NCBI GenBank assembly: GCA_028716485.1
Contig: JAQUPS010000008.1
Location: 1 to 58,402 of the forward strand
Source of the DNA: Patescibacteria group bacterium
GTDB lineage: Bacteria > Patescibacteriota > Patescibacteriia > Patescibacteriales > WJLG01
Length of the DNA stretch: 58,402 nucleotides
Direction: 5' to 3'
A program made the position numbers and the translations under genes. The notes beneath the pieces are model-generated. The model was not told the DNA's origin, made no database searches, and saw nothing but the letters and a program-made list of their open reading frames with translations. Within the stretch, counting starts at the first letter, position 1. Every line of letters begins with the position of its first letter. Positions 4,536 through 38,171 of the stretch are shown here, piece after piece.

Positions 4536-6065
4536 TCAAGCGGATTTTTCCCGATATTGCAGAGCTTCGGCCAGATGGGCGGTGGAAATCGATGGTTCAT
4601 TATCCAGGTCAGCGATAGTGCGAGCTAATTTTAAGAGGCGAAAATAGGAGCGAGCGGAAAGATTGAGTGTGTCGATGGCGCTGCTGATCAGTTTTTTGGC
4701 TTCATCATCAAGCGCGCAGCATCGCCGGGTTTTTTCCGAGCTCATTTCCGCGTTGGTGAAGATTTTTTCGTTCTTGAATCTTTCCGCCTGGATTTCCCGC
4801 GCCGCGGTGACGCGTTTTTTCATGGTTGAAGAATTCTCGCCGGGGAGATTTTCGTCCAATTTTTTGAATTCCATCCGCGGCACTTCCAGTTGCATGTCGA
4901 TGCGGTCCAAAATCGGGCCGGAAATTTTTTTGCGGTAATTCTGGATCTGCATCGCCGAACAGGAACAGGCGCGGGCGCGGTCGCCGAAAAATCCGCAAGG
5001 GCAGGGGTTCATCGAAGCGATTAAAATGAATTTGGCCGGAAAATCCAGATGTCCGGCGGCGCGGCTCACGGTAATGACGCCGTCTTCGAGCGGCTGGCGC
5101 AAAGCTTCCAGAACCGGACGGGGAAATTCGGCGAATTCGTCCAAAAACAAGACGCCGCGATGGGCAAGCGATATCTCTCCCGGGCCGGGCTGGATGCCGC
5201 CGCCGACCAAAGCCACGCCGGAAGCGGTGTGATGCGGGGCGCGGAACGGCCGGGACTTTATCAAACCGCTTTTTTCTTTCAGTTTGCCGGCGACGCTGTA
5301 AATTTTGGTGACCTCTAAGGCTTCGGCAAAAGCCAGATCCGGTAAAATGGAAGGAAAAGTTTTAGCCAGCATTGTTTTACCCGAACCTGGCGGGCCGAAC
5401 ATCAGCAAATTATGTCCGCCGGCCGCGGCTATCTCCATCGCCCGTTTTACCTGCTCCTGGCCTTTCACGTGCGCCATGTCATATTCGATTGGCACATTAA
5501 AAAGTTCCGGATCGCGGTAGGGAAATTCGGGAATGGCGACTTTGCCGCGCAAATGAAAGACCAGCTGCATTAAATTTTTAACTGGAATTACCCTGATTTC
5601 TTTGGCTAATTTGGCTTCGGCCGCGTTGGCTTCCGGCAAAAAGACCGTTGTCTTGCCGGCGCGTCTGGCGCAAAGCGCAACCGGCAGGGCGCCGGTAATC
5701 GGGCGCAGATCGCCGTTCAAAGATAGCTCGCCGGTAAAAATAAAATCGTCCAGATTGATTTTTCCCGAAATGAATTCGCTTTTCTGCAAGATGCTGATGG
5801 CGATCGGCAGATCAAAAGACGGCCCGTGCTTGGGCAGATAGGCCGGCGCCAGATTAACGGTCACTGAAACGCGCGGAAATTCAAAATTGGAATTTTTAAT
5901 GGCGCTCCGCACCCTTTCCCGAGCTTCGGAAACTGCCTTATCCGGCAAGCCGACTAAAAAAATTTTTCCATACTCTCCCCCGCCGGTATCGGCCTCGACC
6001 TCGACCAATTCGGCGTCCAGCCCGACCACCGCGGCGGAAAAAACTTTACTCGACATGAATATCAA
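4536..6065 (-). CDS. comM: YifB/ComM family Mg-chelatase-like AAA+ ATPase
   Basis: GPPGSGKTMLAKTFPSILP, FRAPHHTAS, RGVLFLDEFAEF, MNPCPCGF. Confidence 0.95.
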   Translation of the reverse strand: MIFMSSKVFSAAVVGLDAELVEVEADTGGGEYGKIFLVGLPDKAVSEARERVRSAIKNSNFEFPRVSVTVNLAPAYLPKHGPSFDLPIAISILQKSEFISGKINLDDFIFTGELSLNGDLRPITGALPVALCARRAGKTTVFLPEANAAEAKLAKEIRVIPVKNLMQLVFHLRGKVAIPEFPYRDPELFNVPIEYDMAHVKGQEQVKRAMEIAAAGGHNLLMFGPPGSGKTMLAKTFPSILPDLAFAEALEVTKIYSVAGKLKEKSGLIKSRPFRAPHHTASGVALVGGGIQPGPGEISLAHRGVLFLDEFAEFPRPVLEALRQPLEDGVITVSRAAGHLDFPAKFILIASMNPCPCGFFGDRARACSCSAMQIQNYRKKISGPILDRIDMQLEVPRMEFKKLDENLPGENSSTMKKRVTAAREIQAERFKNEKIFTNAEMSSEKTRRCCALDDEAKKLISSAIDTLNLSARSYFRLLKLARTIADLDNEPSISTAHLAEALQYREKSA

Positions 6066-6116
6066 TTAAAAATTATGCCGACGTAAAGTCGGCATCCCGA
6101 GCTTGCCTCGGGAAAA
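6061..6116. repeat. dispersed two-hairpin repeat (family B, copy 1)
   Basis: ATCAATTAAAAATTATGCCGACGTAAAGTCGGCATCCCGAGCTTGCCTCGGGAAAA; one mismatch to 33333..33388. Confidence 0.85.
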
Positions 6117-6240
6117 ATGAAAAGTTAAAAATTATTTAAAGACGATAACTCTTTTATTATAACATAAAATAGATATTCGGTGATTTAGGTAAATGCGGTT
6201 GACAAAAAAGATTTTTACTGTTAAGTTTAAATTAATTTTT

Positions 6241-6705
6241 ATGAACTATCGGTTGTTAAAATTTATCAAAGAGGCCTTTAAAAATCCCGGGACAGCCTTG
6301 GATTTTGGTTCGGGTGAAGGTATGGATAAGGCCTGTCTTAAAAACCTCGGCTGGATTGTAAGAGGGGTTGATTTAAAATCAGGCACAGATTTAAATTTGC
6401 CTTTTGAGGCAAAAAAAGTTGATTTGGTTTATGCCAACTATCTTTTGCAATTTTTGGATAATAAGAAGCAATTTATTGATAATTGCTTTAATAATTTAAA
6501 AAAGGGAGGGAGACTTTTTTTGCATACATTTGACAAGTCCGACCGGGTTCTTAAAAAAAAAATAAGCACCAAAGAACTTAAGAAATTATTAAGAGATAAA
6601 TTTGAAGATATAGAAATAAATATTTTTAGCGAGTTTGATAATCACCCCAAACATCGTCATTGGCATAAGATATTAGAAGTAACGGCAAAAAAAAGAGAAC
6701 TTTAA
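6241..6705 (+). CDS. SAM-dependent methyltransferase, possible RiPP-cassette member
   Basis: ALDFGSGEGMDKACLKNLGWIVRGVDLKSG; internal ATG at 6241 looks a likelier start than 6193; 22 nt upstream of the radical SAM gene. Confidence 0.75.
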   Translation: MNYRLLKFIKEAFKNPGTALDFGSGEGMDKACLKNLGWIVRGVDLKSGTDLNLPFEAKKVDLVYANYLLQFLDNKKQFIDNCFNNLKKGGRLFLHTFDKSDRVLKKKISTKELKKLLRDKFEDIEINIFSEFDNHPKHRHWHKILEVTAKKREL

Positions 6706-6727
6706 CAATTCAACGAAGGGATAAAAA

Positions 6728-7729
6728 ATGTCCAAAAGATTTTATCTGCAATGGCACATCACCAATCAATGTGGCAATAGATGTCGTCATTGTTATCAGC
6801 AGGGAAATTATGGCGGTCCAGAAGTCACTCTCGAAAGAGCGGCTTTAATTTTGGAAGATTTTTTAAGTCTCTGCAGCCGGCTTAAAGCCGATTCTTATTT
6901 GGCGATAACCGGCGGCGATCCATTTCGGAACAGTGCTTTTAGGTCGATATTAACGGTGGCGTCTTCCAGTTGTTTCTGGGTCAGTATTCTCGCCAATCCG
7001 GAAAACGTTACCGAGGAAAATTTAGAGTGGCTGGAAAAACTAAAGATAAGATTTTTCCAAGTTTCCCTCGACGGTTTGGAAAAAACTCATGATAGCATCC
7101 GTTATCCAGGGAGTTTTAAAAGAACCATGGAGGCCATCAAGCGATTATCAAGAACATCTATCAAGCCCATGGTAATGTCCACCGTCTCTTCTCTCAACTA
7201 CAGAGAAATGCCGGCTGTTATGAGAGAGGTTTATGCGGCTGGCGCCAAAAGATGGTCTTTTGCCAGGTGGACGCCTGTGGGGATTGGCGATTGCGGAATA
7301 AAACCAGATGAGTATATGTGTTTTTTGAGAGAAATTTCTAAAATTCATAAAAAGTTCGAAGCCGAGGGACATGATCCTGTCGATAAAGATCCTTTAACAA
7401 TCCTAATAAACGCTAACGAATGTTCTGACTCTTCGCAAATGGTTGCCGGTGGTTGCGGCATAGGGTCATCGGTTTTGACGCTTTTGCCGGATGACACGGT
7501 AATGGCTTGTCGTAGACATCCAGGTAGCGTCCTTGGTAAGTGGACCACTGAAAATAACTTTCTGTATCACTTTGCGCTTAATCCCAAAATGGATGAGTTT
7601 AGACAATTCGAAAAAATCGAAGGATGTGGAAAGTGTAAATTTTTAAAATATTGCCGGGGTTGCAGGGCTGCAGCCTATTCAGCAACAGGAAATCATTTTG
7701 GCCGCGACCCTCAATGTCCGCTATGTTGA
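6728..7729 (+). CDS. radical SAM/SPASM-domain peptide maturase
   Basis: CGNRCRHC (CxxxCxxC) near the N-terminus; C-terminal CGKCKFLKYCRGC...CPLC SPASM-like cysteines. Confidence 0.9.
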   Translation: MSKRFYLQWHITNQCGNRCRHCYQQGNYGGPEVTLERAALILEDFLSLCSRLKADSYLAITGGDPFRNSAFRSILTVASSSCFWVSILANPENVTEENLEWLEKLKIRFFQVSLDGLEKTHDSIRYPGSFKRTMEAIKRLSRTSIKPMVMSTVSSLNYREMPAVMREVYAAGAKRWSFARWTPVGIGDCGIKPDEYMCFLREISKIHKKFEAEGHDPVDKDPLTILINANECSDSSQMVAGGCGIGSSVLTLLPDDTVMACRRHPGSVLGKWTTENNFLYHFALNPKMDEFRQFEKIEGCGKCKFLKYCRGCRAAAYSATGNHFGRDPQCPLC

Positions 7730-7774
7730 AATAATATTGCCTTTTTCCTTCAGTAAAGAAAGGAGGTGATTAAA

Positions 7775-7891
7775 ATGAAAACCGAAAAAAGAATTGATGA
7801 AGTCCTAAGTAAGCTTCTTCATCAAGGCTTTATTTTTGACGAAAGTGCGGATACTTGCTGTCACTGCAGCTTTACCTGCACTACCGATTAA
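7775..7891 (+). CDS. putative RiPP precursor, 38 aa, Cys-rich C-terminal core
   Basis: MKTEKRIDEVLSKLLHQGFIFDESADTCCHCSFTCTTD*; SD AAAGGAGGTGAT at 7759..7770; follows the rSAM gene; absent from the ORF track (too short). Confidence 0.8.
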   Translation: MKTEKRIDEVLSKLLHQGFIFDESADTCCHCSFTCTTD

Positions 7892-7901
7892 GCTTTCTTT
7901 A

Positions 7902-7936
7902 TAGCACGGGCAGATGATGTCCGTGCTAATTTTTTG
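7902..7936 (+). terminator. rho-independent terminator closing the RiPP cassette
   Basis: TAGCACGG...CCGTGCTA stem then a T-rich run. Confidence 0.8.
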
Positions 7937-11601: not shown

Positions 11602-11991
11602 ATGTCTGAAGAAAAAAATATTTCCACCGAGGAAAAGGCCGTAGTCAACGAGAAAGACACAAAAGGCAAAGCGGCTAAGCCGGAAGAGTTAAAGCCGGGG
11701 ATGACCATCCGCGTTTATCAGAAAATCAAAGAGCTGAACGCCAAGGGCGAAGAAAAGGAGCGTTTACAGTATTTTGACGGTATGATCATCGCCAAAAAAC
11801 ACGGCAATGAAAAAGGCGCGACCATTACGGTGCGCAAAATTTCCGAAGGCGTGGGCGTGGAAAAGATTTTCCCGCTTTATTCCCCGACCGTGGATAAAAT
11901 CGTCATCAAAAAACAGGCGAAAGTCCGGAAAGCCAAATTGTATTATCTGCGCGGAGAATACAAAAAACGTTTGAAAGAAAAAGCTTATTAA
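11602..11991 (+). CDS. rplS: 50S ribosomal protein L19
   Basis: LKPGMTIRVYQKIKE...RLQYFDGMIIAKKH...ITVRKISEGVGVEKIFPLYSPTVDKI. Confidence 0.95.
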   Translation: MSEEKNISTEEKAVVNEKDTKGKAAKPEELKPGMTIRVYQKIKELNAKGEEKERLQYFDGMIIAKKHGNEKGATITVRKISEGVGVEKIFPLYSPTVDKIVIKKQAKVRKAKLYYLRGEYKKRLKEKAY

Positions 11992-12037: not shown

Positions 12038-12688
12038 ATGAGTTATCCAAGGAGGGAGAAAGTCAAATGGAGCGCGGATTTGGCATATGTTGTCGGGCTA
12101 ATAACCAGCGATGGCTGCCTTTCCAAAAATGGCAGGCATATTAGCTTGACTTCCAAAGATGAGGATTTACTAAATACGGTTAAGAAAATTTTAGGACTTA
12201 AAGTTAAAACAGGTTATAAGGTTTGCGGCTTTAGCAACCACAAATGCCCCAATATACAATTCGGCGACGTTATTTTTTACAGATGGCTTGAATCAATCGG
12301 CTTAATGCCGAAAAAATCAAAGATCATTGGCAGCTTGAAAGTTCCTAAAAAATACTTTTTTGATTTTTTAAGAGGTTTATTCGATGGTGATGGCTGTTTT
12401 TATTCATATTGGGACAAGCGTTGGAAAAGTAGTTTTATGTATTATGTTTGTTTTTGTTCTGCCAGCAAAAAGTTTTTAGTATGGTTGCAAAAATCATTAT
12501 TCGAATATTTAAAAGTAAAGGGAGATTTAAAGACTGGTACAAATATTTGGGATTTAAGATTCGCCAAAAGAGAAGGTTTAAAAATAATTAAAAAAATGTA
12601 TCATTCGCCGGACGTTAAGTGTCTGGGCAGAAAAAAGAAAAAGATTATAGCAGCTTTTGAGGAGAGCGGAGTAAAGGTTAAAATTTAA
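12038..12688 (+). CDS. free-standing LAGLIDADG-type homing endonuclease
   Basis: LAYVVGLITSDGCLSKNGRHISLTSKD and FLRGLFDGDGCF motifs. Confidence 0.85.
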   Translation: MSYPRREKVKWSADLAYVVGLITSDGCLSKNGRHISLTSKDEDLLNTVKKILGLKVKTGYKVCGFSNHKCPNIQFGDVIFYRWLESIGLMPKKSKIIGSLKVPKKYFFDFLRGLFDGDGCFYSYWDKRWKSSFMYYVCFCSASKKFLVWLQKSLFEYLKVKGDLKTGTNIWDLRFAKREGLKIIKKMYHSPDVKCLGRKKKKIIAAFEESGVKVKI

Positions 12689-21251: not shown

Positions 21252-21480
21252 AGGGCATGTGCGTTCCTCCGCCGCCTGTGCCGCTCAAGGCATTGAAGAT
21301 AAAGTAGGTGATGGAGTAGGCGGCAATAATGATTGCCAGACCGATGATGGCGCGCGTTATGGTGGGTAGGGCATGTGCGTTCCTCCGCCGCCTGTGCCGC
21401 TCAAGGCATTGAAGATAAAGTAGGTGATGGAGTAGGCGGCAATAATGATTGCCAGACCGATGATGGCGCGCGTTATGGTG
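21252..21480. repeat. tandem direct repeat, 113 bp identical units with 116 bp period
   Basis: 21252..21364 repeated at 21368..21480, both AGGGCATGTGCGTTCC...GCGCGTTATGGTG. Confidence 0.9.
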
Positions 21481-21797
21481 TGTTTGGATTTTTCGATTTT
21501 TTCCTCATTGCCTTCGGCGGTCATCCATTGGAATCCGGCATAGATAAGCAGTACGACAAAAATTATACCAAGAAGACTTAAGGCCGCAGTAATTATCGTG
21601 CCGACAATTCCGGCCACGTTGGTGACCGACACTCCTGATGACAGCAAAAAAGCTTTTGTTTGCGGGTTGGAAACAGAAAGGGGATTGGGTGTTGCGGCGG
21701 CGGCCGGAGCTTCATCCGCGGCCAAAGCCGAAAAACCCGCCAACAAAAAACAAGTGAAAACGATTGATAAGAAAATAGTGGAAATTTTTTTAATCAT
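21357..21797 (-). CDS. T4SS-pilin-like protein
   Basis: YAGFQWMTAEGNEEKIEKSKHTITRAIIGLAIIIAAYSITYF. Confidence 0.8.
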   Translation of the reverse strand: MIKKISTIFLSIVFTCFLLAGFSALAADEAPAAAATPNPLSVSNPQTKAFLLSSGVSVTNVAGIVGTIITAALSLLGIIFVVLLIYAGFQWMTAEGNEEKIEKSKHTITRAIIGLAIIIAAYSITYFIFNALSGTGGGGTHMPYPP

Positions 21798-21807
21798 ATA
21801 TATCTGG

Positions 21808-22185
21808 TTAGATAGAGAAAGAAATAGCCCTGACTAAGGCGTAAATGCCATAAACGCCGATGGTGATAATCAGGCCGATTATCGCGTTGCGCATTATTTT
21901 TTGCGCCTTTTCCACCCTGGCTTCGTCGCCTTCGGCGGTCATCCAGATCACGCCGGCATAGATTATCAAGACAATAAAAATTATCCCTAAAAGGCCTAAA
22001 ACAGTTCTGACAATCGTTCCGGCGATTACGGAAATGGTTGTTTCGTTGGTTGATTGGGAGTAGCCGGCGGAAGCCCCTACGTTTTTTAGAGCATCAAGGG
22101 GAGCGGAGGCAAAGACAAAATAGGGGAGAACCAAAAAAGCAAGCAAGCTGATTAAAATGGAAATTCTCTTGATAATTTTTTTCAT
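21808..22185 (-). CDS. T4SS-pilin-like protein
   Basis: YAGVIWMTAEGDEARVEKAQKIMRNAIIGLIITIGVYGIY. Confidence 0.8.
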   Translation of the reverse strand: MKKIIKRISILISLLAFLVLPYFVFASAPLDALKNVGASAGYSQSTNETTISVIAGTIVRTVLGLLGIIFIVLIIYAGVIWMTAEGDEARVEKAQKIMRNAIIGLIITIGVYGIYALVRAISFSI

Positions 22186-22206
22186 ACGGTTATCAAAAAT
22201 ATTTAT

Positions 22207-22590
22207 TTATCCCAAGGCGGCTTTGTTCAAAGCGCTGATGACGAAATAGCTGATCGCGTAAGCGGAAACGATAATGATCAAGCCGATAACCGCGTTGCGG
22301 ATTATAGTTTGGGCTTTTTCCACTTTGGCTTCTTCGCCTTCGGCCGTCATCCAGGTGAAACCGCCGTAAACCAGCAGAACGATAAAAATTACGCCCAATA
22401 AGCCAAGCAATGTCTGGATAATCGCGCCGATTATTTGATATAAACTTGCGCCGGTATTGCCGCAATTTCCAGCCGCCGCGCAGAGTGTGCTATTGCTGAA
22501 AGCGTCGCCCAAACCAGCGGCCTGAGCGCCGGAAAGCAAAACAAAAAACAAGCAGAAACTTAGCGGGATTAACCAGACGGATTTTTTCAT
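22207..22590 (-). CDS. T4SS-pilin-like protein
   Basis: YGGFTWMTAEGEEAKVEKAQTIIRNAVIGLIIIVSAYAISYF. Confidence 0.8.
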   Translation of the reverse strand: MKKSVWLIPLSFCLFFVLLSGAQAAGLGDAFSNSTLCAAAGNCGNTGASLYQIIGAIIQTLLGLLGVIFIVLLVYGGFTWMTAEGEEAKVEKAQTIIRNAVIGLIIIVSAYAISYFVISALNKAALG

Positions 22591-22596
22591 AAATAA

Positions 22597-22956
22597 TTAT
22601 TTTGCCAAAGCGCTGATAATAAAATAGCTGATGGCGTAGGCGGCTAAAACAATTACCAAGCCGATTATGCTGTTAGTGATGATGCCTTTGGCTTTTTCAA
22701 CCCGTTCTTCCGCGCCTTCGGCCGTCATCCACATAATTCCGCCATAAATAATTAAACCTAAAAAAACAACCCCTAAAAGCGATAAAGCAGTGTTAATAAT
22801 CATGCCTATTCCAAAGGCTAAATCACCGTTAAAACCAAAAAGCGTCTGGGTGGTATGGCCGGTTTTTTCCGCCGTGTCATTTAGACCGCTGTTTTCGACA
22901 AAATTGTAGGCCAATTGTTTATTATTAAGAATGGCCGCATTGATGGCTGAAAGCAT
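22597..22956 (-). CDS. T4SS-pilin-like protein
   Basis: YGGIMWMTAEGAEERVEKAKGIITNSIIGLVIVLAAYAISYF. Confidence 0.8.
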   Translation of the reverse strand: MLSAINAAILNNKQLAYNFVENSGLNDTAEKTGHTTQTLFGFNGDLAFGIGMIINTALSLLGVVFLGLIIYGGIMWMTAEGAEERVEKAKGIITNSIIGLVIVLAAYAISYFIISALAK

Positions 22957-22974
22957 TTTGTTTTTCCGTGTAAA

Positions 22975-23403
22975 TTATCCCGCGCCAGCCAGCTGGGTGC
23001 CGATGAAACGAGTGATGGCGTAAGCAGCTAAAACTATTACCAGGCCGATGACCGCGGCGATTAGGATTTCTTTGGCCTTTTCAATTTCGGCTTCATTGCC
23101 CTGCGCCATCATCCAGCGGATGCCGCCGTAGAAAATTAATAAAAAGAAAACAACGCCAAGCAAAGAAAGAATGGCGCTGATGACCGTGCCGACGATGGAT
23201 TGCGGAGTGCTGTTGATCAGCGCTTTGCCCACCTCGCCTTTAGTGGCTTCTACCAAGCCGTAATTATTAGTGGGCGCCGACGGGGAAGTTTGGTCGTCGG
23301 CCAAAACCGGCGAGAAAAAAATCGGCAAGACAAAAAACATCAAAATAGCTGAAAAAACGCCCAATTTTTTTGCCAAAAAAAACATATTTTTGCAAATTAG
23401 CAT
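22975..23403 (-). CDS. T4SS-pilin-like protein
   Basis: YGGIRWMMAQGNEAEIEKAKEILIAAVIGLVIVLAAYAITRF; start at MLICKNMFF is likelier than the upstream repeat-derived start. Confidence 0.8.
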   Translation of the reverse strand: MLICKNMFFLAKKLGVFSAILMFFVLPIFFSPVLADDQTSPSAPTNNYGLVEATKGEVGKALINSTPQSIVGTVISAILSLLGVVFFLLIFYGGIRWMMAQGNEAEIEKAKEILIAAVIGLVIVLAAYAITRFIGTQLAGAG

Positions 23404-23472
23404 TGTTACTGCTCTGGACACAATTTTTACAAATCCTCTTCGGCTCCGCTCAGCGCAGGCCATCCCATTAGC

Positions 23473-23520
23473 CCACCCCGTCGCGTCAGGGACGCGCCAC
23501 CCCTCCCGGGAGGGGAATTA
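23473..23520. repeat. dispersed repeat (family A, copy 2)
   Basis: CCACCCCGTCGCGTCAGGGACGCGCCACCCCTCCCGGGAGGGGAATTA. Confidence 0.8.
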
Positions 23521-23583
23521 TGTTCAAGGCAGTGGGCTCAGGAAAAGAGCCCACCAACTTTCCTAAAACTAGTTTTGAGAAAC

Positions 23584-23991
23584 TTAGATGCTGCTTATCA
23601 AGCTACTGAGCACAAAGTTGGCGATTCCCCAAGAAGCCAGAATGATTACCAGACCGATAATGCCGGCCATTAAAACTTTCTTTGCTTCTTCAATTTGCTC
23701 TTCATTGCCTGCCGCGGTCATCCATTTGAAACCGCCGATTAAGATAATTACCACCGCCAAAACACCCAAGAAACCCAAGGCGATCTTGATGATATTGGCA
23801 GCGATGGTTCTTGGATCGGAGACGGAAAGACCTGTTACACTGCCGATACTCTGAACGGCAGGTACCCCTGGCACTGGCGGGCCCTGTGTTACATCGTTAA
23901 TATCAATGGCCATCGCGGGAATGACTGATAACGGAGAAATAATCGTAAGCGCCACGGCCAAAACCATCAAGCTTTTTAATATTTTTTTCAT
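23584..23991 (-). CDS. T4SS-pilin-like protein
   Basis: IGGFKWMTAAGNEEQIEEAKKVLMAGIIGLVIILASWGIANFVLSSLISSI. Confidence 0.85.
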   Translation of the reverse strand: MKKILKSLMVLAVALTIISPLSVIPAMAIDINDVTQGPPVPGVPAVQSIGSVTGLSVSDPRTIAANIIKIALGFLGVLAVVIILIGGFKWMTAAGNEEQIEEAKKVLMAGIIGLVIILASWGIANFVLSSLISSI

Positions 23992-24079
23992 AAGTTCTTA
24001 CTGTCAAAAGACGCGGTTTAAACGCCTTAAATTATTTTATCGATTTTGTCGAAAATTTACCAAAATTATTTTTGGTAAA

Positions 24080-24466
24080 TTAAATGCTGCTTATCAAGCT
24101 ACTGAGCACAAAGTTGGCGATTCCCCAAGAAGCCAGAATGATTACCAGACCGATAATGCCGGCCATTAAAACTTTCTTTGCTTCTTCAATTTGCTCTTCA
24201 TTGCCTGCCGCGGTCATCCATTTGAAACCGCCGATTAAGATAATTACCACCGCCAAAACACCCAAGAAACCCAAGGCGATCTTGATGATATTGGCAGCGA
24301 TGGTTCTGGGGTCGGTATTGTTCAGACCAGCGCTAACGTCATAACCGCCAGTCAAAGTATTAATATCAATTGCATAAGCCGGAGCGGCTATTACACCAGC
24401 CAAAGCGGGGACGGCGATTGACATTGTCATGGCGACGATCATTAACATTTTTAACATTTTGTTCAT
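24080..24466 (-). CDS. T4SS-pilin-like protein; C-terminal half identical to the neighbour
   Basis: Identical DPRTIAANIIKIALGFLGVLAVV...SSLISSI. Confidence 0.85.
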   Translation of the reverse strand: MNKMLKMLMIVAMTMSIAVPALAGVIAAPAYAIDINTLTGGYDVSAGLNNTDPRTIAANIIKIALGFLGVLAVVIILIGGFKWMTAAGNEEQIEEAKKVLMAGIIGLVIILASWGIANFVLSSLISSI

Positions 24467-36097: not shown

Positions 36098-36184
36098 GGA
36101 GATGTGCCAGAGTGGTTGAATGGGCCGCACTCGAAATGCGGTATGTCCGGAAGGGCATCAGAGGTTCGAATCCTCTCATCTCCG
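36098..36184 (+). tRNA. tRNA-Ser(CGA)
   Basis: GGAGATG...CATCTCC, loop CTCGAAA, long variable arm. Confidence 0.95.
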
Positions 36185-36228
36185 CCTTCGCTCGCCGAAG
36201 CGAGCTACGGCGGACAAAGTCCGCCGGT
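36185..36228. repeat. family C palindromic repeat abutting tRNA-Ser
   Basis: CCTTCGCTCGCCGAAGCGAGCTACGGCGGACAAAGTCCGCCGG. Confidence 0.8.
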
Positions 36229-36380
36229 AGATTGCGAAAGATAGACACATAAATAACCTGACCTGCGTCAGGTTGTTTTGGTTAGACAAAACCTTGACAA
36301 TTTATAAATTTAGTGTTATCATTAATTTCAAACGAAACGATTGCTATATCTGTACATTGCCAACCAAAAGGAGAACAATC

Positions 36381-36803
36381 ATGAATTTTATTACCGCGCT
36401 TCTGAACGCGTTTTTAATTTCTCACGCTCTGGAATTAGGGATGATTCCGAACAGCGACGTGAGCCTGTATGCAATTCCTTATCATCAGGAATATTTGCAT
36501 ACCGAGGAGAGTATGTATGCGGAGTATTCAACGAAGATGACGATTGCCAAAATTGGTTTCGTTACCGGCGGAGTTACCACCTACTGGTGGAATTACTACT
36601 CTGACCAACAGAAATGCGGCTATCCCTTCCGCATGGATTATAAGATCGGGGGAGGGGTGAAGTATAAATGGATTACCTTGGGAGTTGATTACGGATGCTA
36701 TCATCCGATCGCGCCCCGGGAAGAAAATGTTCCGCTTCCCAGACTCGATGCCAATTTTACCCGAATTTTTCTTCGGTTTGAAACGAAGAATTTTTCTGAA
36801 TGA
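36381..36803 (+). CDS. hypothetical protein
   Basis: ATG preceded by AAAGGAGAAC; 36273 start is out of place. Confidence 0.6.
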   Translation: MNFITALLNAFLISHALELGMIPNSDVSLYAIPYHQEYLHTEESMYAEYSTKMTIAKIGFVTGGVTTYWWNYYSDQQKCGYPFRMDYKIGGGVKYKWITLGVDYGCYHPIAPREENVPLPRLDANFTRIFLRFETKNFSE

Positions 36804-36899
36804 GTTTAATCGAACCCCGGCTTAGCTGAAATGCTACCGGGGTTCTTATTATTCTAACCAACTTATTTCTTGCTTTTTTTGCTAAAATTTTATAGTATT

Positions 36900-37012
36900 A
36901 AAAACAGTCCCTCACCATTTTTAATAAGCCTTGAGAAAATACCCTAAAATAGCGGATACTCGTCTTGAATGAATTTCGTTTATTTTATTAAAAATGGTGA
37001 GGGACTGTTTTT
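36900..37012. repeat. MITE-like element with 28-29 bp perfect terminal inverted repeats
   Basis: AAAAACAGTCCCTCACCATTTTTAATAA (36900..36927) vs its reverse complement (36985..37012). Confidence 0.85.
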
Positions 37013-37025
37013 ATTCGGGATATCA

Positions 37026-37096
37026 CGGGTTGTAGTATAATGGTAGTACGCGTGCATGGGGTGCATGTAGCCGCGGTTCGATTCCGCGCAGCCCGA
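37026..37096 (+). tRNA. tRNA-Pro(GGG)
   Basis: CGGGTTG...CAGCCCG, loop ATGGGGT. Confidence 0.9.
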
Positions 37097-37282
37097 CAGA
37101 ACGCATACCAGGTTCCCACCCATAAGGTGGTCCGCCTTTGGCGGAAATTCCCAGTACCCCGACGATTCGGATTTCAGAAGTCGGAATTCGGATTTCGGAT
37201 AAAGATCTAAAATATTTTGTCCAAACAAAATTACTTAAGCGATTTATCCGAAATCCGATGTCCGAAATCCGATTTTTGATAC

Positions 37283-37356
37283 GGGTAATTAGCTCAGTTG
37301 GTTAGAGCGCTGCATTCACATTGCAGAGGTCATAGGTTCGAGTCCTATATTACCCA
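37283..37356 (+). tRNA. tRNA-Val(CAC)
   Basis: GGGTAAT...ATTACCC, loop TTCACAT. Confidence 0.95.
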
Positions 37357-37360
37357 CATT

Positions 37361-37431
37361 GGGCCTATAGTCTAGCGGTACGACGCTACATTCGCATTGT
37401 AGAGGCGGCGGTTCGACTCCGCCTAGGTCCA
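37361..37431 (+). tRNA. tRNA-Ala(CGC)
   Basis: GGGCCTA...TAGGTCC, loop TTCGCAT. Confidence 0.9.
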
Positions 37432-37544
37432 CAGATCGGATTTCAGAAGTCGGAATTAGGATTAAACGATAAAAATATTTTTATTGAGATGAAATTGTTT
37501 ATCGGATATCCGATTTCTGATTTCCGAAATCCGATATCCGATAG

Positions 37545-37616
37545 GCGGGAGTAATTCAACGGTAGAATGTTTGCTTCCCAAGCAAAATGTTGCGGGTTCG
37601 ATTCCCGTCTCCCGCT
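37545..37616 (+). tRNA. tRNA-Gly(CCC)
   Basis: GCGGGAG...CTCCCGC, loop TTCCCAA. Confidence 0.95.
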
Positions 37617-37735
37617 CATCGGATTTCGGATGTCAGATATTGGATGTCGGATTTAGCGTTTAAAAAGTTTTATTCAAATAAAACAGTTTTAGCGATTTAT
37701 CCGAATTCCGAAATCAGAAATCCGATATCGGAAAC

Positions 37736-37817
37736 GGGCGCGTGGCGAAATTGGCAGACGCATACGCTTCAGGTGCGTACGAAGCAATTCATGTGGGTTC
37801 AAGTCCCACCGCGCCCA
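37736..37817 (+). tRNA. tRNA-Leu(CAG)
   Basis: GGGCGCG...CGCGCCC, loop TTCAGGT, long variable arm. Confidence 0.95.
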
Positions 37818-37875
37818 CCTTCGTCCGCCGAAGCGGACTACGGCGGGCAAAGCCCACCGTTTCCGCGAAGGCGGA
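37818..37875. repeat. family C palindromic repeat abutting tRNA-Leu(CAG)
   Basis: CCTTCGTCCGCCGAAGCGGACTACGGCGGGCAAAGCCCACC... Confidence 0.8.
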
Positions 37876-37980
37876 ACATCGATTTGCGATTTCAGATTTT
37901 TGATTGACGATTTGTTTTTTATAGTTTATGGTATCTATAAAGATAAATCGAAAATCGTAAATCTGAAATCGTAAATCGTT

Positions 37981-38017
37981 TCGGGGTATGGCCTAATTGG
38001 CTATGGCGCACGCTTCG
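37981..38017 (+). pseudogene. 5' half of tRNA-Pro, exact 37-bp duplicate of 38084..38120
   Basis: TCGGGGTATGGCCTAATTGGCTATGGCGCACGCTTCG then a family C palindrome. Confidence 0.85.
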
Positions 38018-38084
38018 CCCGCCTTCGCTAAGGCTTCGGCGGATAAAGGTGCTTGAAGTGATTTTTAAAGTTCGCGAAAATGGT

Positions 38085-38158
38085 CGGGGTATGGCCTAAT
38101 TGGCTATGGCGCACGCTTCGGGTGCGTGAGGTTCTGGGTTCGAGTCCCAGTACCCCGA
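38085..38158 (+). tRNA. tRNA-Pro(CGG)
   Basis: CGGGGTA...TACCCCG, loop TTCGGGT. Confidence 0.95.
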
Positions 38159-38171
38159 CCATTTTCACGAG

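Follow-up and report, generated by a model that had tools for sequence, protein, structure and literature searches.

The SPASM enzymes of RiPP pathways are known to form S-C, C-C and C-O bonds (PMC8326336; PMC8939145), and the chemistry of SPASM enzymes is diverse (PMC8326336). RiPP-type loci have also been described in ultra-small bacteria, namely the graspetide loci of the Candidate Phyla Radiation, some of which carry a SPASM maturase together with a UbiE-like methyltransferase (PMC8939145). Modified-peptide pathways are little described in ultra-small, mostly uncultured bacteria, and the literature on ACGX with radical SAM enzymes, or on sactipeptides in the Candidate Phyla Radiation, yielded nothing on the system presented here. 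The named families closest to its maturase are ACGX and SbtM, and the chemistry of neither is known to have been solved. In Clostridium estertheticum and in Roseburia plasmids the acgA (ACGX-repeat) genes are located upstream of acgM.

The locus analysed here belongs to a stretch of 58,402 nucleotides from a Patescibacteria group bacterium, which as a whole is called the window. A cassette of three genes was recognized on its forward strand: a small class I SAM-dependent methyltransferase (154 aa, 6241..6705, with an alternative in-frame ATG at 6193; Pfam Methyltransf_23 E=1.2e-10, Methyltransf_11 E=1e-9) is followed after 22 bp by a radical SAM/SPASM peptide maturase (333 aa, 6728..7729), and this, after 45 bp, by a 38-aa ORF (7775..7891 including the stop). 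No RRE, peptidase, transporter or immunity gene could be recognised next to the cassette. Judged from the sequence, the 38-aa ORF and the adjacent enzyme very probably constitute a precursor-maturase pair, and the ORF probably encodes a RiPP precursor, synthesized on the ribosome and modified by radical SAM chemistry. The original prediction, in which the ORF had been proposed as a Cys-rich precursor, is supported overall; the named group of the maturase and the recurrent methyltransferase had been overlooked in it.

The ATG of the ORF is at 7775 and its stop codon at 7889-7891; translation of 7775-7888 gives MKTEKRIDEVLSKLLHQGFIFDESADTCCHCSFTCTTD, which is exactly the peptide quoted in the original prediction. 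The Shine-Dalgarno sequence AAAGGAGGTGAT (7759..7770, + strand) is a 12-nt complement of the 16S 3' end, with its GGAGG (7762-7766) at a spacing of 8 nt from the ATG, both as had been claimed. This 12-mer occurs a single time in the 58.4-kb window, likewise its 9-base core AGGAGGTGA, and the host genome has the expected, complementary 16S 3' end GGATCACCTCCTTT, located by pattern match, the rRNA gene itself being without annotation. The terminator predicted right after the ORF was found at 7902..7928 (+ strand) as an intrinsic-terminator-like hairpin of 11 pairs with a T-tract (ATTTTTT), which closes the cassette. The leader can be assigned to residues 1-25 (7775..7849, + strand, ending HQGFIFDESA), with a boundary inferred from the alignment of the L062 and L114 peptides, and the core, compared with L062, to residues 26-38 (7850..7888, + strand, DTCCHCSFTCTTD). 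It was rightly stated that all four Cys are inside eight residues (C28, C29, C31, C35). At least four Cys in the last 12 residues were found in 1 of the 654 window ORFs of 20-80 aa, which is the 38-aa ORF itself; the chance expectation from a first-order Markov model is 0.3 such Cys-tailed ORFs per 58 kb, and 0.05 if a strong Shine-Dalgarno is included. These values and the ortholog described below are in line with the earlier claim that the ORF is hard to obtain by chance.

The maturase contains the CxxxCxxC radical SAM motif (C15/C19/C22, invariant; Pfam Radical_SAM, PF04055 E=5.3e-14) and seven conserved SPASM cysteines (C243, C261, C300, C303, C309, C312, C330), its SPASM domain scoring 35.6 bits with TIGR04085, above the cut-off of 27. 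The catalytic and SPASM Cys columns are invariant in the window clade and in 13 AcgM-like relatives. With its radical SAM domain beginning near residue 8 of 333, the protein has no room for a fused N-terminal RRE. The AlphaFold2 model (mean pLDDT 71, pTM 0.76) is weak in part of the SPASM region (residues 216-246 and 295-312) and was therefore used for the overall fold only; it resembles the folds of BlsE, SkfB, SuiB, PqqE, anSME and ChlB. Among these solved neighbours SkfB, SuiB, PqqE and ChlB are peptide-modifying enzymes, and SkfB, which ranks among the best by fold, is also the best PDB sequence match.

The top NCBIfam match of the maturase is TIGR04340 (rSAM_ACGX). In the maximum-likelihood tree the window enzyme and its two closest orthologs form one clade (100/100), nested inside a 16-row AcgM group (100/99) which takes in the annotated acgM of C. 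estertheticum and of the Roseburia plasmids. The invariant SPASM cysteines are common to the group, the window enzyme is 31-39% identical to the AcgM-type enzymes outside its own clade, and a short Cys-rich precursor stands next to the enzyme in both systems. However, the window maturase, with 227.5 bits, fails the TIGR04340 equivalog cut-off of 400, and the window peptide has no ACGX repeats and no match to TIGR04341, whereas a comparable search gives the true AcgA of C. estertheticum 52.2 bits with this model. Furthermore, the precursor is downstream of the enzyme in the window clade and usually upstream in the AcgM group, the leader motif is QGF.FD as compared to N.W, and C189 is a clade-specific Cys of the window-clade enzyme. 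The sub-cut-off maturase score, together with the lack of an ACGX-repeat match, places the cassette as a variant beside the ACGX system and not as its member: it represents a poorly documented branch of an established enzyme family, scattered among ultra-small bacteria. For other AcgM-type enzymes of the phylum the gene immediately upstream is a short Cys-rich ORF (loci L002, L003, L032, L059, L060, L061, L115, L116 and L117), with cores such as CNCGGGC, CTCTGC and CSCTGC. At one AcgM-type locus (L003/L085, 1189-2054) the precursor is intact and the maturase is internally deleted (residues about 164-306), thus decay of the cassette is visible.

The second NCBIfam match, with 165.9 bits (cut-off 350), is SbtM of the SbtM/SbtA thio(seleno)oxazole system (TIGR04082), a 516-position model having a long N-terminal part which the window enzyme does not possess. 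The radical SAM plus SPASM/twitch architecture and a Cys-rich substrate are shared with SCIFF/ScfB, CteB, SkfB, AlbA and PapB; the window maturase differs from the SCIFF, ranthipeptide and sactipeptide enzymes in being without an N-terminal RRE, which SkfB and CteB have, and the window peptide contains four Cys compared to six in 45 residues in SCIFF. No NCBIfam (E<=1), Pfam or PHROG model, SCIFF included, matched the window peptide; as SCIFF needs six Cys, identity with it was rejected, in agreement with the original prediction, which had seen no obvious match to SCIFF. An ATP-grasp enzyme was not recognised in or next to the cassette, hence a graspetide was rejected too; the precursors also differ from those of the graspetide loci.

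The strongest evidence for the precursor comes from the homologous maturases. The genome G697 belongs to the same class and to another order; there a 58% identical maturase is followed after one base by the peptide MKYAQETQEALEALIAQGFVFDDEDDTCCHCSFSCTD (L062/L090), which has the leader motif QGF[IV]FD, with its GFxF, and the core DTCCHCSF[ST]CT..D in common with the window peptide. An alignment of 37 codons shows 12, 10 and 25 differences between the two peptide genes at codon positions 1, 2 and 3, respectively; as the dS is saturated, codon-position counts are given and no Ka/Ks. In the core 11 of the 12 aligned codons specify the same residue as in L062, six of them through synonymous changes, and the remaining one is a Thr to Ser replacement; the non-Cys residues H30, S32 and F33 are conserved as well as the Cys between these two closest copies. 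This codon-position pattern and the retention of the core are typical of a coding sequence under purifying selection. The third maturase of the clade (47-48% identity; peptide L114) was found in G1051, a member of another class of the phylum, and 11 bases past its stop codon there is a 43-aa ORF with its own Shine-Dalgarno (MNKRISKRRKMQVRAAVKRLSKLGFISRAKNKKCTICTGMDGD), the next gene being a methyltransferase. The leader of this peptide is related (LSK..GFI) and its core is reduced to CTIC. A leader that is kept while the core varies is the pattern expected for RiPP precursors. Since the CTIC member has two Cys only, not all four Cys can be essential to the common reaction of the clade, and at most two Cys positions are common to its chemistry. 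The Cys pattern which the original prediction required next to homologous maturases is thus kept, leader included, in another order, a Cys peptide with a related leader lies downstream of the third enzyme, and the frame-disrupting variation named there as counter-evidence was not found in the relatives.

The close ortholog of the core is a single one among about 1,600 genomes. The peptide as query gave, the window itself aside, only weak chance matches in 193 genomes of the class (E>=0.0067); four of these were inspected and had no maturase nearby, the true relatives having come from the maturase search. The viral contigs, scanned with the maturase alone and with a two-enzyme alignment, contained no relative, and one scan of genome contigs revealed distant enzymes only (Methanobrevibacter, Ruminococcus, Deltaproteobacteria); at the Methanobrevibacter locus the opposite strand encodes a Cys-rich peptide in which SCCIDTT occurs twice.

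The cassette was absent from the same-genus and same-family genomes examined. In a genome of the same genus, whose flanking sequences are 81-82% identical, the ComM-like ATPase and SMC genes enclose unrelated genes instead, which indicates that the cassette is accessory and occupies a variable slot. Its G+C content is 39%, that of the flanks 53% and 46%, and that of the orthologous G697 maturase 61%. The genomes sampled from the phylum are of 0.5-1.7 Mb, many of them >90% complete, in agreement with a Candidate Phyla Radiation host.

With regard to METHYLTRANSFERASE, a class I methyltransferase stands next to 11 of the 14 AcgM-type loci in the phylum, and one of the three loci without it is truncated by the contig end. 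These methyltransferases belong to several subfamilies and are positioned upstream, downstream or convergently. The same methyltransferase queries found a single place in the 58-kb window; as the background rate derives from this one window, the association is given without a p-value. The window methyltransferase itself represents a discrete subfamily, with members in 7 of 109 genomes from the order, each at E<1e-37. In two of the six other genomes, G020 and G486, its neighbour is a different radical SAM gene with a Cys-rich peptide nearby; these peptides end ...CTICCDCCMCETGGV and ...CPICCDCCLCETGGV, respectively, and their leaders also contain a DF.F motif. The methyltransferase match of G020 is interrupted by a stop codon, and in G486 a transposase-like ORF lies between the Cys-rich peptide and the radical SAM enzyme. 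At the closest ortholog locus, L090, a methyltransferase is missing, so the gene is not obligatory and could be helpful at most; its participation in the pathway is, in our estimate, rather probable. A second type of Cys-rich precursor (..LKLP.DF.F...C.ICCDCC[ML]CETGGV) was observed in the same order (L104:1995-2129, L106:1986-2120), with another radical SAM enzyme and a methyltransferase from the window's subfamily in its vicinity; the G486 peptide is of this type.

The most likely product is a RiPP with Cys-derived (thioether) links, its chemistry and role being inferred. In the proposed mechanism the methyltransferase, the maturase and the precursor would be co-transcribed, and the precursor would be heavily translated from its near-perfect Shine-Dalgarno just 5' of the terminator. 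The RRE-less enzyme may bind the leader through the L..L..QGF.F segment, a suggestion based on the conservation of the leader beside a variable core. The 5'-deoxyadenosyl radical would then take hydrogen from residues adjoining the clustered cysteines. With the help of the auxiliary clusters of the SPASM domain, S-C (thioether) links of Cys would form within CCHCSFTC, and the result would be a small Cys knot with tight cross-links. Finally, the methyltransferase may methylate this product, or its substrate may be something that the peptide handles. Cys being the only feature common to all precursor cores, thioether chemistry is preferred, and we give it about an even chance.

The conserved H30, S32 and F33, which match the Cys in conservation between the two closest copies, leave other radical chemistry possible. 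A C-C or C-O link at Phe, His or Thr, epimerisation, decarboxylation or a thio-oxazole-type change would make the product neither a sactipeptide nor a ranthipeptide. Such a change would be compatible with the ACGX and SbtM families, whose chemistry is not known to have been solved, and with the diversity of SPASM enzymes (PMC8326336). On the other hand Cys dominates every AcgM-type precursor collected here, the CTIC variant included, and we regard a non-thioether change as the less probable outcome, of appreciable weight. Somewhat more tentatively, the methyltransferase, the AcgM-like enzyme and the Cys-knot peptide might be considered a horizontally moving cassette for a new class of methylated, radical-cross-linked Cys peptide with leader-conserved, core-variable precursors, used between episymbionts or between episymbiont and host.

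As concerns function, a role in metal or metalloid handling is a serious rival, compatible with radical-SAM modification, albeit we consider it unlikely. According to this explanation the Cys-rich core, modified or not, chelates a soft metal or metalloid and a TehB/ArsM-like methyltransferase detoxifies or finishes the complex, the product being neither a secreted signal nor an antibiotic. TehB-type methyltransferases (Pfam TehB E=3e-17 to 3e-23) do adjoin several AcgM-type loci, the window methyltransferase has weak ArsM-type matches, the second-best family of the maturase is a thio(seleno)oxazole one, and the lack of recognised export, peptidase and immunity genes would fit. The TehB and ArsM matches are, however, generic class I similarity, the window methyltransferase belonging to another subfamily; the gene is missing from the closest ortholog locus, and no metal-resistance genes were recognised around the cassette. 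It is very improbable that the ORF product is a small protein rich in Cys, such as a zinc knuckle, a regulator or a partner, which merely travels with the radical SAM gene and is not its substrate: small zinc-binding proteins can look similar and CCHCSF[ST]C is kept in two copies only, the third having CTIC, but the ORF is immediately 3' of the maturase in all three clade members with a conserved leader and a variable core, a Cys-rich short ORF accompanies almost every AcgM-type enzyme examined, and the named homologous system pairs the acgA peptide with acgM. A chance ORF or an assembly artefact, suggested by the short length, was rejected with near certainty, since the ortholog was found with frame, core and context conserved in an independent genome and the expectation with a Shine-Dalgarno is as low as 0.05 per 58 kb.

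The RiPP reading offers a minimal testable pair, a 333-aa enzyme and a 38-aa substrate, with three natural core variants (CCHCSFTC, CCHCSFSC, CTIC) and a methyltransferase that recurs. From this pair the chemistry of the AcgM/ACGX group could be learned, as well as whether episymbionts and their hosts interact through such peptides.

Further short ORFs were noticed beside other radical SAM genes. Two of them, led by a Shine-Dalgarno and located just upstream of NirJ2-like radical SAM genes (L007:1269-1373, L041:1281-1355), end SRCRCFTCDTN and KCRCMTCDVN, respectively, and these tails resemble the CHCSFTCTTD core of the window peptide. In an AcgM-bearing genome a 43-aa ORF ending ESCCYTVCNRR (L117:7004-7135) directly precedes a further radical SAM gene (5545-6936), which suggests that a single small genome holds several peptide systems of the radical-SAM kind.

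Elsewhere in the window, a free-standing LAGLIDADG-type ORF (12038-12688; Pfam LAGLIDADG_3 E=1.1e-12) is positioned between a ribosomal-protein-like gene (11602-11991) and a tRNA-Leu. On the - strand, 21357-24466 encodes about six small two-helix membrane proteins in tandem, of which the two tested both match T4SS_pilin (PF18895, E=6e-13); the 3' halves of the copies at 23584-23991 and 24080-24466 are near-identical. Finally, seven tRNA genes (Ser, Pro, Val, Ala, Gly, Leu, Pro) are clustered within 2 kb at 36098-38161, and their anticodons all begin with C or G.
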